NCBI GenBank assembly: GCA_009887095.1
Contig: QXYC01000004.1
Span: 25,561-89,560, forward strand
Source of the DNA: Candidatus Poseidoniales archaeon
Lineage (GTDB): Archaea > Thermoplasmatota > Poseidoniia > Poseidoniales > Poseidoniaceae
Reading direction: 5' to 3'
DNA length: 64,000 nt
Below are positions 43,195 to 49,035 of the stretch, piece by piece. Each line of letters opens with the position of its first letter. Within the stretch, counting starts at the first letter, position 1. The notes below the pieces were generated by a model. The model did not search any database. It was not told the origin of the DNA and saw only the letters and a program-made list of their open reading frames with translations. The position numbers and the translations under genes were made by a program.

Positions 43195-44976
43195 TTAGCC
43201 TCGCAAACGTGCGAGCAAGTCATCGATGTGGTCAATTTTCCCTCGAGCAGATTTCACACGATCTGCTGCATCTGCGACCGACGCTGCCACTTCCATCTCA
43301 GGTTCGGTTTCTCCCGTATGGTCAACAGGCTTGAACGCTTCAGCAAGCGCCTTCAGTTCCGTCACAATAGCGTCCACTTGTGTGTCAGAAATCATGATTC
43401 CAGGTGCTATGCGAGGGATTTCAGCAGGTGAGATGAAACCAAGTTCAGCCCCAATGATTCCTGCGCATGCCAGGATTCGTGGTCGAAGGTCGGCGGTGTT
43501 GACTTCGTAGCCTCGTGATTCAAGGAAACGAATAACGAGCGCTTGTTGAGGTTCGCTGAAGGTACCCTCACTGCTTTCGAGAATGGTCTCGACGAGTTCT
43601 TCGAATGCAGCTATGTTCCGCTCCAATCGGTCAAGTGTGCTGCGTTCCGTTGTCGAAAGGTGGACTGCTCCATGCTGAAGGATGCGCAAGATACGATTTC
43701 TTCGTGCAATGGCCGGATCTTGGAGGGCTTGGGCTTGGTTAATGTCCACATGTAAGTCAAACAATGCGTGCAATCGACCTGAAACGCTTGGGATTGAAAG
43801 GTCAAGGCCCATTGAACGACCAACATCTTCGAAGGCCATTCGTGCTTTGACAAGGTCGCCGCTATGGGAGGCAAGCGTGTCATCGAGTTGACCTCTAAGA
43901 CCCTCTCTTGAATTTTCAAACACACGGAGCGCTTCTCGTTCCCGCCACGAATTTGGCATCGCATGCATGGCTTGTTTCTCGGTTTGTGAGCGGTACTCTA
44001 AGTCCATGATGGTGGTCCGAATTGTGTCTTGGACCGCAGGAATTTCTGTGGCAAAGCCATGTGATTTGAGGCTTTGAATGAAGGCGTTGAGGTCATCGGG
44101 CTCGCTTGTGCTGCTCACTGCCAAAAAATCTCGACCGGCTGCCTCGATTTCTGGAAGGCGTGCCTTGAGGTCAAGCAAGGATGATTCCACTTCGAGCGTG
44201 TGTTCCTCTGCACCGGGTTCGGCGACTTGGACCATCGAAGGTGCGGGTTCACTTTCAGCACCGTCGTTCCCGCCCCTTCGGAGGGCTTCATCGAGGGTTG
44301 AGGCAATCGGTGCCTTGGAAACTTGAATGCCTTCTTGAGCCAATTCGGTGCGAAGTTCGGTTTCCTCTTCAAACGTCCAACCTTCAGGATGTTCCGAAAC
44401 AAATGTTTCAGCAGCTTCGATCACTGCTTCATGGGCGTCAGATGATGGTTGTGCGGGTGCCACTGGCGATGGGACAGGTGTTGCAGGCGATGGCAATGCC
44501 TTGGCGTTCGTTCTCGGCCGGCGCAGGCTTTTCTTGACCTTGCCCCACCCGCCATCTTGTGAGGCAAGAACACCGGCCACTCGGACCAAGAGTGCTTGCT
44601 TTGCACCAGAAAGTGGCAATTCCAAAATTTTACACATCGCATGCAATTCATCCCGAGTCATTGAATCGAGTGATTCCGGCACGAGGCGCTTTGCATCGTG
44701 GTTGAGGTGAAGATAGAGTCGTTGCCTTCGTGCTCGAAGAGATCCTGATTTCTTAATTCCAAAGACGCCAAGGAGTTCCCCAAGTTCGTTGTTCATGAGG
44801 TTTCGAATGCCCTCTGGCGAAAGGTCCCATTCGTCAAGAATGAGGTGTTGGATGAGTCTTGCTCGGAGGGTTTCCACTGAACCAGTTTTTGGAAGGTTGT
44901 AGGCAACTGCGACTTCCTTCAAACCGTCAAACCGGGCTTGATAGAGTTCGGATAGGAGTTCCCCCTTGTCGACCAT
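43195..44976 (-). CDS. Triple SAP-like protein with coiled-coil C-terminus
   Basis: A 593-residue protein. Three copies of a SAP-like helix-loop-helix stand at the N-terminus: KEVAVAYNLPKTGSVETLRA, LLGVFGIKKSGSLRARRQRL and MCKILELPLSGAKQALLVRV. This module binds DNA or RNA in other proteins. A Pro/Ala linker (SPATPVPSPVAPAQPSS) leads to about 350 residues of charged helix and predicted coiled coil. No catalytic motif was seen. The start ATG 44976 has GGAAGGTG upstream; the frame is open to 45120. It abuts the ATPase gene convergently without gap. A nucleoid or chromatin role is inference. Confidence 0.7.
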   Translation of the reverse strand: MVDKGELLSELYQARFDGLKEVAVAYNLPKTGSVETLRARLIQHLILDEWDLSPEGIRNLMNNELGELLGVFGIKKSGSLRARRQRLYLHLNHDAKRLVPESLDSMTRDELHAMCKILELPLSGAKQALLVRVAGVLASQDGGWGKVKKSLRRPRTNAKALPSPATPVPSPVAPAQPSSDAHEAVIEAAETFVSEHPEGWTFEEETELRTELAQEGIQVSKAPIASTLDEALRRGGNDGAESEPAPSMVQVAEPGAEEHTLEVESSLLDLKARLPEIEAAGRDFLAVSSTSEPDDLNAFIQSLKSHGFATEIPAVQDTIRTTIMDLEYRSQTEKQAMHAMPNSWREREALRVFENSREGLRGQLDDTLASHSGDLVKARMAFEDVGRSMGLDLSIPSVSGRLHALFDLHVDINQAQALQDPAIARRNRILRILQHGAVHLSTTERSTLDRLERNIAAFEELVETILESSEGTFSEPQQALVIRFLESRGYEVNTADLRPRILACAGIIGAELGFISPAEIPRIAPGIMISDTQVDAIVTELKALAEAFKPVDHTGETEPEMEVAASVADAADRVKSARGKIDHIDDLLARLRG

Positions 44977-45103: not shown

Positions 45104-45144
45104 ATAGGCAATGGTTTCAATACCCGTCGACCAAATTGCCGTTT

Positions 45145-45723
45145 ATGGGCAAGACGGTCAAGGCAACGAAATCAGGCTTACGGGACGCTCATGAGATGGT
45201 TGCTTCCTTGAAGGAAATGATTCAAGCCGATCTCCGGAAGCAACGGTCAGGTTTTGAGGAAGCGCTTTCTTCCAGACTTGACATGGCAGAAGATGTCATC
45301 CTTGAATCAGCCAAGGCCAAAGTGGCCATAATCGCTGGTGTGGGTGTTATGCGGAAGGATCTAGATCGTGCCCAACGCAAGTTTTCAAAATCCAATGATG
45401 TCGAAGAATTGCGGTCCACCCTCATTTCCCTCTCAAATAAACTTGGTAAGTTACGCTCAACAAATAACAAGGTTGTTGCTTCGCTCGGCACCGTCCTGAA
45501 TCCAACCCTCTCAGCCGTTGAAGTGGTGGAACGCTTCGCTTCGGATTTGCAACGCTCCGCTGGCACATGGGAGCGCCATGGTCGAGAAATCGATGATGCC
45601 ATTATGGAACTCTGCCAAGACAATCAGCCAGCAGAAATGGTTGAACTTGAAGCATATATCGCTAGTCAAGGATACAGCGTTTTACTCGGTGAAGCTCACT
45701 CTTCTTCTGATGAATCTGAGTGA
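45145..45723 (+). CDS. Helical protein with basic N-terminus and acidic tail, unknown
   Basis: A 192-residue protein without signal peptide or membrane segment. It is almost all helix: a basic start (GKTVKATKSGLRDAHEM), long amphipathic helices (LKEMIQADLRKQRSGFEEAL, DLDRAQRKFSKSNDVEELRS, NKLGKLRSTNNKVVASLGTV) and an acidic Ser/Asp/Glu end (SSSDESE). This size and charge layout recalls ESCRT-III/CdvB (Snf7) proteins, but I see no diagnostic motif such as a MIM. It is divergent from the SAP-like gene and overlaps the HemC-like gene tail-to-tail by 28 bp. Confidence 0.65.
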   Translation: MGKTVKATKSGLRDAHEMVASLKEMIQADLRKQRSGFEEALSSRLDMAEDVILESAKAKVAIIAGVGVMRKDLDRAQRKFSKSNDVEELRSTLISLSNKLGKLRSTNNKVVASLGTVLNPTLSAVEVVERFASDLQRSAGTWERHGREIDDAIMELCQDNQPAEMVELEAYIASQGYSVLLGEAHSSSDESE

Positions 45724-46814
45724 TCTTCGCTGAGGTTGAGCAGTGCAGGTCTTGCATCGCTGAAATCCTCAGGGAGCCCGATGTGCAATCTTGGAATCTC
45801 TTCGTGTTCAGTTTGCATGAGGTCGAGGAGGATTTGGAATTCTCTGAGCACAGATACCATTCCCATGTGACTCTCTTCGACGGGGCAGACTCGTTCGGCA
45901 CCTGCCGTTACCGTTCCGTGATGATTGAGGGTTTCAATTCTCATCTCCAACCTTGGTCCTGCAACCTTGATTCGATTGTCCACCCCAAGCACGCTCTCGA
46001 GGGTGTGTTCGTCCTTCGACCTGTTCGCTTCTCGAAGGATGGCTGCAACCTTGCGTTGTTCGACGAAGATGCCTATGATTGAATGGAGTTCTTCTGGAAT
46101 CGAAGCGAGGAAGGCAACTTCCATGCGGTGTGCTATGTAAGCGCCGTTATCGCACATCGGTTGGACCGTTGCGCTCGGGAAACCGTTTCGCGCAACAAGA
46201 AGTGTAAACCCGTGCAATGGGGGTGGGATGAAATGGGTTCGTTCGGGGTTGTCCCGTTGGAGACCAAGTGTGTGTCTTCGTGCCTTGTATCTCAGGGCTC
46301 CATGTTCGCCGCGGTCAACAATATAACCATCCAGTGCACCGTCTTGGCGAAGTTCCTCCAACCAAGGCACACGGTCTTCTTCATCCATGGTTGCAAACGC
46401 TTCTCCCTTTCCGATCGAATCTGCAAACGACTGGGAATTCATGAGGTTCAAATCTGCGCGCAACCGCCTCATCTGACGGCGCAAGAGCATGTGATCACAA
46501 ACGACGACGGCTTTGGATTGAAGGTATTCTGGTTTGTCTTCAGAAACAATGACCCAAGTGGGCTCCCTTCGTGGAAGAACGCCAATAATTTTCAAGCCAT
46601 CGTGGTCCAAATCCTTCCATTGATGGGCGCTCATTGCGAGGAAATCACCATGGCCGTCTTTGAGGGCCTCAATGGCACTTTCCATGTGAGGAACTTGCTT
46701 CATAATGAAGTCGAATTTGTTGCGGTTTGTTTCGATTGTTTTCTCAATCTGCCGACGCACTCCGTCCCTGTTTGACGGCGTGGTGAGGACCTCAAGGCGT
46801 ACCTTTTCTGTCAT
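45696..46814 (-). CDS. hemC-like: Porphobilinogen deaminase-like protein lacking the cofactor cysteine
   Basis: A 372-residue protein (HemC is about 310). Family signatures: GDFLAMSAHQWKDLDHDGL, matching HSxKD with the catalytic Asp as D68; IIGVLPRREPTWVIVSED, matching the GAVLPREDP-type segment; and CDHMLLRRQMRRLRADL, matching GTSSLRRQAQLL with both arginines (R112, R113). In domain 3 AERAFL appears as HRMEVAFL, but the GGCxxPIG loop that carries the dipyrromethane cofactor reads EELHSIIG, with Leu about where Cys belongs. An acidic tail (SEDHSDSSEEE) ends it. It may have a changed substrate or be non-catalytic. The start at 46814 is five bases behind GAGGTGA. Confidence 0.75.
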   Translation of the reverse strand: MTEKVRLEVLTTPSNRDGVRRQIEKTIETNRNKFDFIMKQVPHMESAIEALKDGHGDFLAMSAHQWKDLDHDGLKIIGVLPRREPTWVIVSEDKPEYLQSKAVVVCDHMLLRRQMRRLRADLNLMNSQSFADSIGKGEAFATMDEEDRVPWLEELRQDGALDGYIVDRGEHGALRYKARRHTLGLQRDNPERTHFIPPPLHGFTLLVARNGFPSATVQPMCDNGAYIAHRMEVAFLASIPEELHSIIGIFVEQRKVAAILREANRSKDEHTLESVLGVDNRIKVAGPRLEMRIETLNHHGTVTAGAERVCPVEESHMGMVSVLREFQILLDLMQTEHEEIPRLHIGLPEDFSDARPALLNLSEDHSDSSEEE

Positions 46815-46896
46815 CATTTCACCTCGGCGAGGATTGCTCCTCACATTACAAGGGCGGAGACTACCGGTTAAGAAGGGCACCGTTGTAGGATGTTAC

Positions 46897-47880
46897 GTGG
46901 CGAACATTGGTTTGGAAGCGAGTGACCAACTCGAAGTGATGCGTCTCCATGTTGACGCAGCCCTCGAAGCACTTGTTGAAGACGAGATTGAGCAGGGTGC
47001 CGGCCAGGTGGCTGAACTGTGTGCGTCGATGCTTTTGGCAGGTGGAAAACGCCTCCGACCTCTGCTCATTTTGCTTGCTCATGAAATTGCAGGTGGCCAA
47101 GATGCCGAGGAAGTCATGCCGTTGGCCCTGGCATTCGAAATGATTCACACCGCCACGCTCGTCCACGACGATATCAATGACGAGGCGGGGTTGCGCCGAG
47201 GGGTTCAGACCATCCACACAAGAGCCGGTCTTGCAAAAGCCGTCATTGCAGGAGATTGGTTGTTTGTCCAAGGGTTCGGTCTTGGTGGCCGCTACGATGA
47301 ACACATTGTTCGCCTTATGGCGAAATGTTGTGCCGACATTGCCATCGCTGAATTCCACCAACTCGATCACGTCCTCAACTTGGCAACCTCTCCAGAGGAT
47401 TACCTCGCCATCGTTCGAGGCAAGACAGCCGGTCCTTTTGCAGCCGGTTGCCAAGCAGCCGGACTTGTTGCTGGATTGACCGAGGAACAAGCGGCAGGTC
47501 TTGGTCGGTTTGGAATGGAACTTGGTATCGCCTTCCAACTCGTTGACGATCTGTTGGACTTGAGAGGCGACGAACGAATGGGCAAGCCACGTGGTGCAGA
47601 TGTTCTCGAGGGGAAGATGACCCTGCCGCTGATTCATGCGTTGACCCTCTCCCACGGAAAGGAAAGGCAGCGATTGGCAACCCTCATCGAATCCTTTAGC
47701 GATGAACACTTCGATGAACTGATGCAACTTTTGGAACGCTCAGCAAGTTTGAGCTACGCTGAAATCCTGGTCAAAACACATCTTGAGCGAGCCGTTTTGG
47801 AATTGGACGCTTTCCCCGAAAGTCAAGCCAAGAGCCTGATGCTCCACATCACGGGGTATGTAATGGCGCGACATACGTGA
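46897..47880 (+). CDS. ggps: Geranylgeranyl diphosphate synthase (trans-polyprenyl synthase)
   Basis: A 327-residue enzyme that builds C20 (or longer) isoprenoid diphosphate for archaeal ether lipids. Motifs: GGKRLRP, first Asp-rich motif DDINDEAGLRRG (about 91-102) and second DDLLDLRGDE, with GKTAGPFAAGCQ between. Product length cannot be read by eye. Start: GTG 46897 with AGGATGT upstream; ATG at 46939 is possible. The geranylgeranyl reductase follows after 9 bp, so chain synthesis and saturation are coupled. Confidence 0.9.
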   Translation: MANIGLEASDQLEVMRLHVDAALEALVEDEIEQGAGQVAELCASMLLAGGKRLRPLLILLAHEIAGGQDAEEVMPLALAFEMIHTATLVHDDINDEAGLRRGVQTIHTRAGLAKAVIAGDWLFVQGFGLGGRYDEHIVRLMAKCCADIAIAEFHQLDHVLNLATSPEDYLAIVRGKTAGPFAAGCQAAGLVAGLTEEQAAGLGRFGMELGIAFQLVDDLLDLRGDERMGKPRGADVLEGKMTLPLIHALTLSHGKERQRLATLIESFSDEHFDELMQLLERSASLSYAEILVKTHLERAVLELDAFPESQAKSLMLHITGYVMARHT

Positions 47881-47889
47881 GGTCATCTT

Positions 47890-49035
47890 ATGGCTCGAAA
47901 GGAAATCAAACATCGGCAGGTCATCATCGTTGGAGCAGGGCCTGCGGGCGCTGCGTGTGCACAACGTCTGGCCGAAGATGGCATTGATGTGCTGATGATT
48001 GAACGGCGTTCCATTGTTGGAAATCCGGCACAGTGCGGTGAATGCATTCCTAACTGGGGTGAGGTTGTTGGGACCTTTTCGAACCTCGATGATCACACTT
48101 GGCTGTATGATTACTTCCAATTCCCCGACCGCCTCAAGCTCCACAACTTGGATAACATGAGGGTTTTTCTTCCATCGGGAAAAGCCTTCCATTTCGACCT
48201 CGACGCCTTCGCAGGCCACCGTTTGCATTTTGATGGATACCTGTGTGACAAAGCCATTCATGCGGGGGCAGAAGTTCAAATGGACGAAGCAATGACACGG
48301 ATTCAACACCAAAGCAAATCCAACAGGGATGTTCTTGTAACCACAAAAGGACGCTACACGTTCGATTTTCTGATTGACGCCAGTGGCTCTTTGGCCCATG
48401 TGGGACGACTTCGGCACGGTGATGATGAGCGCTATAGACCTAAAGACCAAGTTCCAACAATGTACGCCCAAGTACAAGGTGATGTCCCGGAAACATTCGA
48501 TGTGTTCCTCGGTTCAGTCGCTCCATCAGGCTATGCGTGGATTATTCCGAAGGGCCCAAAGACAGCCAACGTTGGCTTGGGTGTTCGAGCAGGTTACCTG
48601 AAGGGCAATCTCAAGGAACATTTGCAAGCTTTCTGCGACGAGTTGGGCTTCGAAGTTCTCTCGTGGGGTGGCGGTTGGATCCCAATGGGTGGTCCAGTCA
48701 AGACGATGGTCGATGGTACAACCCTCGCTATTGGGGACGCTGCAGGTTTGGTTATGCCGAGCAATGGCGGCGGTATTTCTCAAGCCATCATATCGGGGTG
48801 TTTCGCAGCGGAAGCCATTCTCGACCACTTGAACACGGGTGCCCCGTTGACTGCCTATGAAGACAGGCTTCGTGCCTCGCTTGGAAGAGCCCTAAAGAAT
48901 TCCTTGAGGACCAAGAATTTCGGTTATGCTTTCTTCAAGGGCGATCTCATCACCGAAGGAATCCTTCGTATTCTAGGGCCAATTGGTGGCATCAAACGGG
49001 CGATGGAATGCGACAAACCCGTCTGGCTGTTCTGA
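47890..49035 (+). CDS. ggr: Geranylgeranyl reductase family flavoprotein
   Basis: A 381-residue FAD enzyme that saturates the isoprenoid chains of archaeal membrane lipids. The Rossmann motif IIVGAGPAGAACAQ is at 12-25, the FAD-ribose Glu in DVLMIERR, and PAQCGECIPNWGE shows the conserved cysteines. The second FAD signature is LAIGDAAGLVMPSNGGGI. No signal peptide is present. Start ATG 47890 is 9 bp behind the polyprenyl synthase stop. Confidence 0.93.
   Translation: MARKEIKHRQVIIVGAGPAGAACAQRLAEDGIDVLMIERRSIVGNPAQCGECIPNWGEVVGTFSNLDDHTWLYDYFQFPDRLKLHNLDNMRVFLPSGKAFHFDLDAFAGHRLHFDGYLCDKAIHAGAEVQMDEAMTRIQHQSKSNRDVLVTTKGRYTFDFLIDASGSLAHVGRLRHGDDERYRPKDQVPTMYAQVQGDVPETFDVFLGSVAPSGYAWIIPKGPKTANVGLGVRAGYLKGNLKEHLQAFCDELGFEVLSWGGGWIPMGGPVKTMVDGTTLAIGDAAGLVMPSNGGGISQAIISGCFAAEAILDHLNTGAPLTAYEDRLRASLGRALKNSLRTKNFGYAFFKGDLITEGILRILGPIGGIKRAMECDKPVWLF

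Follow-up and report, generated by a model that had tools for sequence, protein, structure and literature searches.

A HemC-like protein of the order Ca. Poseidoniales without the cofactor cysteine of HMBS

Introduction

What is served by a protein that resembles HMBS (porphobilinogen deaminase, HemC) and has leucine at the position of the cofactor cysteine? The question is raised by one gene in the window, that is, the whole stretch of 64,000 nucleotides analysed here, which comes from a member of Ca. Poseidoniaceae, order Ca. Poseidoniales (Marine Group II). Few enzymes of tetrapyrrole synthesis are as conserved as HMBS, and to our knowledge no family has been described that retains the architecture of HMBS without its chemistry. 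A literature search found neither such a family nor a HemC paralogue in these archaea.

The gene and its surroundings are as follows:

45696..46814, minus strand: HemC-like (pseudo-HMBS) gene encoding 372 aa (P0001), with its ATG at 46814; the ORF is intact and the start is supported by the alignments of relatives.
45696..45723, unstranded: 28 nt in which the HemC-like gene and the convergent 195-aa gene overlap, with acidic tails encoded on both strands.
45136..45723, plus strand: convergent gene of 195 aa, function unassigned, absent from some genera.
43195..44976, minus strand: SAP-domain protein of about 593 aa, start inferred (Pfam PF02037 and synteny).
46815..46896, unstranded: short divergent intergenic region between the HemC-like gene and the GGPP synthase gene (locus comparison).
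46897..47880, plus strand: geranylgeranyl diphosphate (GGPP) synthase-like polyprenyl synthetase, GTG start inferred (PF00348, 206 bits; synteny).
47890..49035, plus strand: geranylgeranyl reductase-like flavoprotein (PF22578; synteny).

Homology to HMBS

Single-sequence searches were of little help. P0001 scored 12.1 bits against Pfam PF01379 (porphobilinogen deaminase), below the cut-off of 22.1; it did not match the NCBIfam HemC model, and a single-sequence search of the PDB returned nothing useful. Two relatives exceed the PF01379 cut-off (24.4 and 22.7 bits), and PF01379 is the sole Pfam family matched by many members of the family (12/40).

Profile comparison was performed between an alignment of 40 HemC-like sequences, drawn from 11 genera of Ca. 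Poseidoniaceae and some 10 of its sister family, and a reference set of 32 canonical HMBS, of which 31 are Thermoplasmatota sequences and one is HemC of E. coli. With hhalign, the two families aligned over 231 columns with a probability of 98.5 and an E-value of 1.7e-15. The maximum probability over 100 column shuffles was 1.9, and the reversed alignment gave 0.4, by which a chance resemblance to HMBS is ruled out. Residues 1-100 alone (94.6) and residues 85-210 alone (95.2) were both well above this null. The alignment is co-linear through domains 1 and 2 and into domain 3 as far as its loop. The HemC-like family has an insert of about 28 residues in domain 3; with this insert removed, the alignment with HMBS runs further into that domain.

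When searched over 196 Thermoplasmatota genomes, the family profile found the HemC-like family within the order Poseidoniales. Outside the order, its matches were canonical hemC in every genome also listed by the hemC search (best E-value 5.5e-13). Against the PDB, the profile gave weak matches to periplasmic-binding-protein (PBP)-like chains, such as BvgS (E-value 0.0016). A merely distant periplasmic-binding-like fold, unrelated to HMBS, is rejected because the profile score is far above the null and the matches outside the order are hemC, although HMBS too belongs to this class of fold. On the strength of these profile comparisons the protein is a true homologue of HMBS/HemC, as its HemC-like identity in the initial annotation had implied.

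An AlphaFold2 model of P0001 was poor (pLDDT 44, pTM 0.29) because only 10 close sequences were used as input; the clustering of conserved Arg residues in the cleft, discussed below, is therefore something that we infer and do not see.

Residues lost and residues kept

The positions referred to in this section are encoded as follows:

46086..46088, minus strand: codon of Leu243, which falls where HMBS has its cofactor cysteine, Cys242 in E. coli (hhalign alignment, with counts per column).
46620..46625, minus strand: His64-Gln65, aligned with Lys83 and the catalytic Asp84 of HMBS (column counts).
46452..46481, minus strand: family motif RRQxxRxRxD (R112-D121), with Q114, R117 and R119 invariant in 40/40 (alignment).
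46254..46280, minus strand: family motif RRHTLGLQR (R179-R187), with R179 and R180 invariant in 40/40 (alignment).

In the hhalign alignment, the cofactor-cysteine column is occupied by Cys in every one of the 32 canonical HMBS but in none of the 40 relatives, where it is mostly Leu (16) or Met (9). The replacement of Cys by Leu read from the single sequence is thus confirmed as Leu243. No conserved Cys column was found anywhere in the 40 HemC-like sequences, which rules out a shifted cofactor cysteine; residue 211, named earlier as a candidate (C211), is Gly.

The losses extend beyond the cysteine. R11, K83, D84, R131, R132, R149, R176, Q198 and C242 (E. coli numbering) are invariant in all 32 canonical HMBS and are not retained in the HemC-like family. 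In P0001, Arg11 is replaced by Thr12, Lys83 by His64, Arg131 by Leu110, Arg132 by Leu111, Arg149 by Gln128, Arg176 by Ala173 and Gln198 by His201. The catalytic Asp84 position is Gln65 (Asp in 11/40 relatives), the R155 column holds Arg in 13/40 relatives, and the family lacks the loop that carries Lys55 and Lys59 in E. coli. The roles of Asp84, Arg149, Arg155 and Cys242 in HMBS have been reviewed (PMC8561815).

The initial annotation had described the active-site KD and RR motifs as kept, and neither reading withstood alignment. K67-D68 lies three residues after the position of HMBS K83-D84 (H64-Q65) and is unconserved in the family, and R112-R113 aligns two residues after R131-R132 (L110-L111 in P0001). 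R113-Q114 is conserved in the family, with R112 variable; a two-residue local misalignment cannot be excluded here and would then retain R132 at most, because R112 varies. The LPRREP segment, also described as kept, does align with HMBS ...EREDPR..., its R82 corresponding to the invariant HMBS R101.

What is largely kept of HMBS is mostly scaffold: D76, R101, R140, D142, G199, E231 and G247 of the E. coli enzyme correspond to D57, R82, R119, D121, G202, E232 and G248 in the HemC-like family. In the 40-sequence alignment, the family has an invariant set of its own, consisting of Q114, R117, R119, R168, R179, R180, R209, E294 and G300.

With the cofactor Cys and nearly all substrate- and cofactor-binding residues gone, the initial view that the protein should be incapable of canonical porphobilinogen polymerisation is supported. 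The same losses argue against a cofactor-free HMBS, one of the options first proposed, as does the absence of hemB from most carriers.

Distribution and selection

The HemC-like gene was found in 253/293 genomes of the class, in both families of the order; none was found among the f3 genomes listed. It is present in 138/146 genomes of Ca. Poseidoniaceae, including all 21 of those at least 90% complete, and is usually single copy. Its dN/dS against near relatives is 0.02-0.06. The gene is under strong purifying selection, and a decaying pseudogene is ruled out by values so far below 1.

The haem pathway in carriers

A search for another hemC and for the rest of the haem pathway had been suggested in the initial annotation. 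Of 30 near-complete genomes of Ca. Poseidoniaceae, the same 8 have a canonical hemC, fused to hemD, and an adjoining hemB; the fusion is there a gene separate from the HemC-like one. Across the order, hemB was found in 9/48 near-complete genomes. It was not found in the genome under study, which is 68% complete; in a single-contig MG-II chromosome, hemB and canonical hemC were both not found and the HemC-like gene was present. Absence of hemB or hemC is weaker evidence where the genomes are drafts. Most carriers apparently cannot make porphobilinogen, judging by gene content, and the HemC-like protein should therefore not be their porphobilinogen deaminase.

Haem-copper oxidase (subunit I) is encoded in 46/48 near-complete genomes of the order, against 9/48 for hemB, so that most Poseidoniales look like haem auxotrophs; the main MGII genome papers checked do not mention haem synthesis. 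Where the early pathway is present, it forms a cluster of a glutamyl-tRNA reductase-like gene and the HemC-HemD fusion (about 570 aa), with hemB close by (L043 95-3192; L041-L047; L049-L052). This cluster is patchy across genera, as if repeatedly lost or exchanged.

Origin of the family

With the HemC-like profile, short HemC proteins from other Thermoplasmatota score up to 52 bits and the Poseidoniales hemC-hemD fusion 5.7 bits or less. The tree likewise separates the family from the fusion, the branch being very long, with about 4 changes per site. A recent duplication of the Poseidoniales hemC-hemD gene is not supported by these profile scores or by the tree. With so long a branch, an old, vertically inherited hemC turned to another use is no more than our guess.

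Gene neighbourhood and acidic tail

Loci of either family keep the gene order SAP-domain gene, HemC-like gene and (divergent) polyprenyl synthase gene. The gap between the divergent HemC-like and GGPP synthase genes is 30-100 nt wherever measurable, mostly about 80, and geranylgeranyl reductase (GGR) usually follows GGPP synthase. The GGR gene is absent beside GGPP synthase in loci L071, L073, L074, L076 and L087. In the sister family the block of SAP-domain, HemC-like and GGPP synthase genes remains, and the pilus ATPase, MoaA and 195-aa genes are mostly gone. No haem-related neighbours of the HemC-like gene were found in the loci examined. The conserved neighbours may partly reflect the general synteny of compact genomes.

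Across the order, nearly all loci have the SAP-domain gene downstream of the HemC-like gene and on its strand; the SAP-domain protein is a possible partner.

Where present, the 195-aa gene converges on the HemC-like gene, with an overlap of 28 nt in the closest relatives, a stretch in which both strands encode acidic Ser/Asp/Glu C-termini. The overlap is also 28 nt in loci L088, L090, L091 and L092. The acidic tail noticed at the outset is real, and the convergent overlap accounts for it; as a family trait it is ruled out, since it is confined to the closer relatives that have this overlap.

Possible functions

We consider it an even call that the protein is an HMBS-derived, non-catalytic anion-binding protein, a sensor or carrier, whose most likely field would be that of isoprenoid lipids. 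It is a full-length HMBS homologue, found order-wide, which would have lost the dipyrromethane-cofactor chemistry and been kept for another purpose. Its class of fold, together with the invariant Arg residues, suggests a soluble, non-catalytic ligand-binding protein, in which two periplasmic-binding-like domains and R113, Q114, R117, R119, R168, R179, R180 and R209 would form a basic interdomain cleft. This cleft may close on an anionic ligand, by which the protein would act as sensor or carrier. The gene neighbourhood, with GGPP synthase and geranylgeranyl reductase as constant neighbours, is the one ground on which isoprenoid lipid synthesis is named as the most likely field, and the downstream SAP-domain protein is possibly involved.

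The invariant residues are also the pattern expected of a new enzyme, in which the HMBS scaffold was rebuilt for another reaction, perhaps in isoprenoid lipid metabolism. Such an enzyme is a serious possibility, though one that we would not bet on. HisG and MqnA/MqnD are soluble enzymes with periplasmic-binding-like folds, and R113, Q114, R117, R119, R168, R179-R180-H181, R209 and E294 would be candidate active-site residues. Ten columns, several of them polar, are invariant across both families, among members whose identity with P0001 is as low as 22-30%; the low dN/dS, the near-universal and usually single-copy occurrence of the gene and its divergent pairing with GGPP synthase point the same way. 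However, no enzyme family other than PF01379 is consistently matched in Pfam, and none in NCBIfam; no pathway gap has been shown for the protein to fill, and its invariant residues are mostly Arg, with few general acids or bases.

Scavenging or sensing of haem or another tetrapyrrole is improbable. The cleft would here bind imported haem, a bilin or some other tetrapyrrole that its carriers mostly cannot make, which would suit the HMBS ancestry and the lack of hemB and hemC in most carriers that nevertheless have the oxidase. Yet the gene is also found in the minority having the early pathway, its neighbours are not haem-related, and the HMBS residues that hold the pyrrole side chains are not retained.

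A divergent porphobilinogen deaminase, with its primer held non-covalently or cofactor-free, is very unlikely: HMBS homology and a cleft architecture that is probably retained would allow it, but besides the Cys the protein has lost the catalytic Asp84 and the Arg residues for the substrate, most carriers are without hemB, and genomes bearing the pathway have the separate canonical hemC-hemD beside hemB. That the protein is unrelated to HMBS, and is either a pseudogene in decay or no more than a type II periplasmic-binding-like fold of the general kind, can scarcely be maintained on the weak single-sequence and PDB profile matches, against a profile-profile score far outside the shuffle null, co-linearity up to domain 3, hemC as the match outside the order and the dN/dS.

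To return to the ligand-binding protein or the new enzyme, a bolder possibility, which we hold to be less likely than not, is an order-wide core family in which an archaeal HemC was repurposed for a new ligand or reaction tied to archaeal membrane-lipid synthesis, and outlasted the loss of haem synthesis in most of the lineage. Near-universal retention in a group that is among the most abundant archaea of the ocean, and whose members mostly seem incapable of haem synthesis, points to a core function, which is directly testable with one purified protein. Annotators should not take a weak PF01379 match in a Poseidoniales genome as evidence for a haem pathway.

Comparison with known systems

Type II periplasmic-binding-protein-like domains, such as the BvgS sensor domains (4q0c), probably belong to the same two-domain cleft class as HMBS; the similarity of the HemC-like family to them is much weaker than to HMBS, and its gene is without sensor-kinase context. 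The Poseidoniales HemC-HemD fusion, found next to hemB in a minority of the order, shares with the family the order in which it occurs and the superfamily, but retains the residues of canonical HMBS, the Cys among them, and forms a separate clade that is not the family's closest HemC. The nearest known system is HMBS itself (EC 2.5.1.61), especially the short Thermoplasmatota HemC. Unlike HMBS, the HemC-like family is mostly found without hemB, has the domain 3 insert, and is without the cofactor Cys, Asp84, R11, R131, R132, R149, R176, Q198 and the K55/K59 loop; in common with HMBS, it has co-linear domains 1 and 2 and the start of domain 3, with the scaffold positions from D76 to G247 largely kept.
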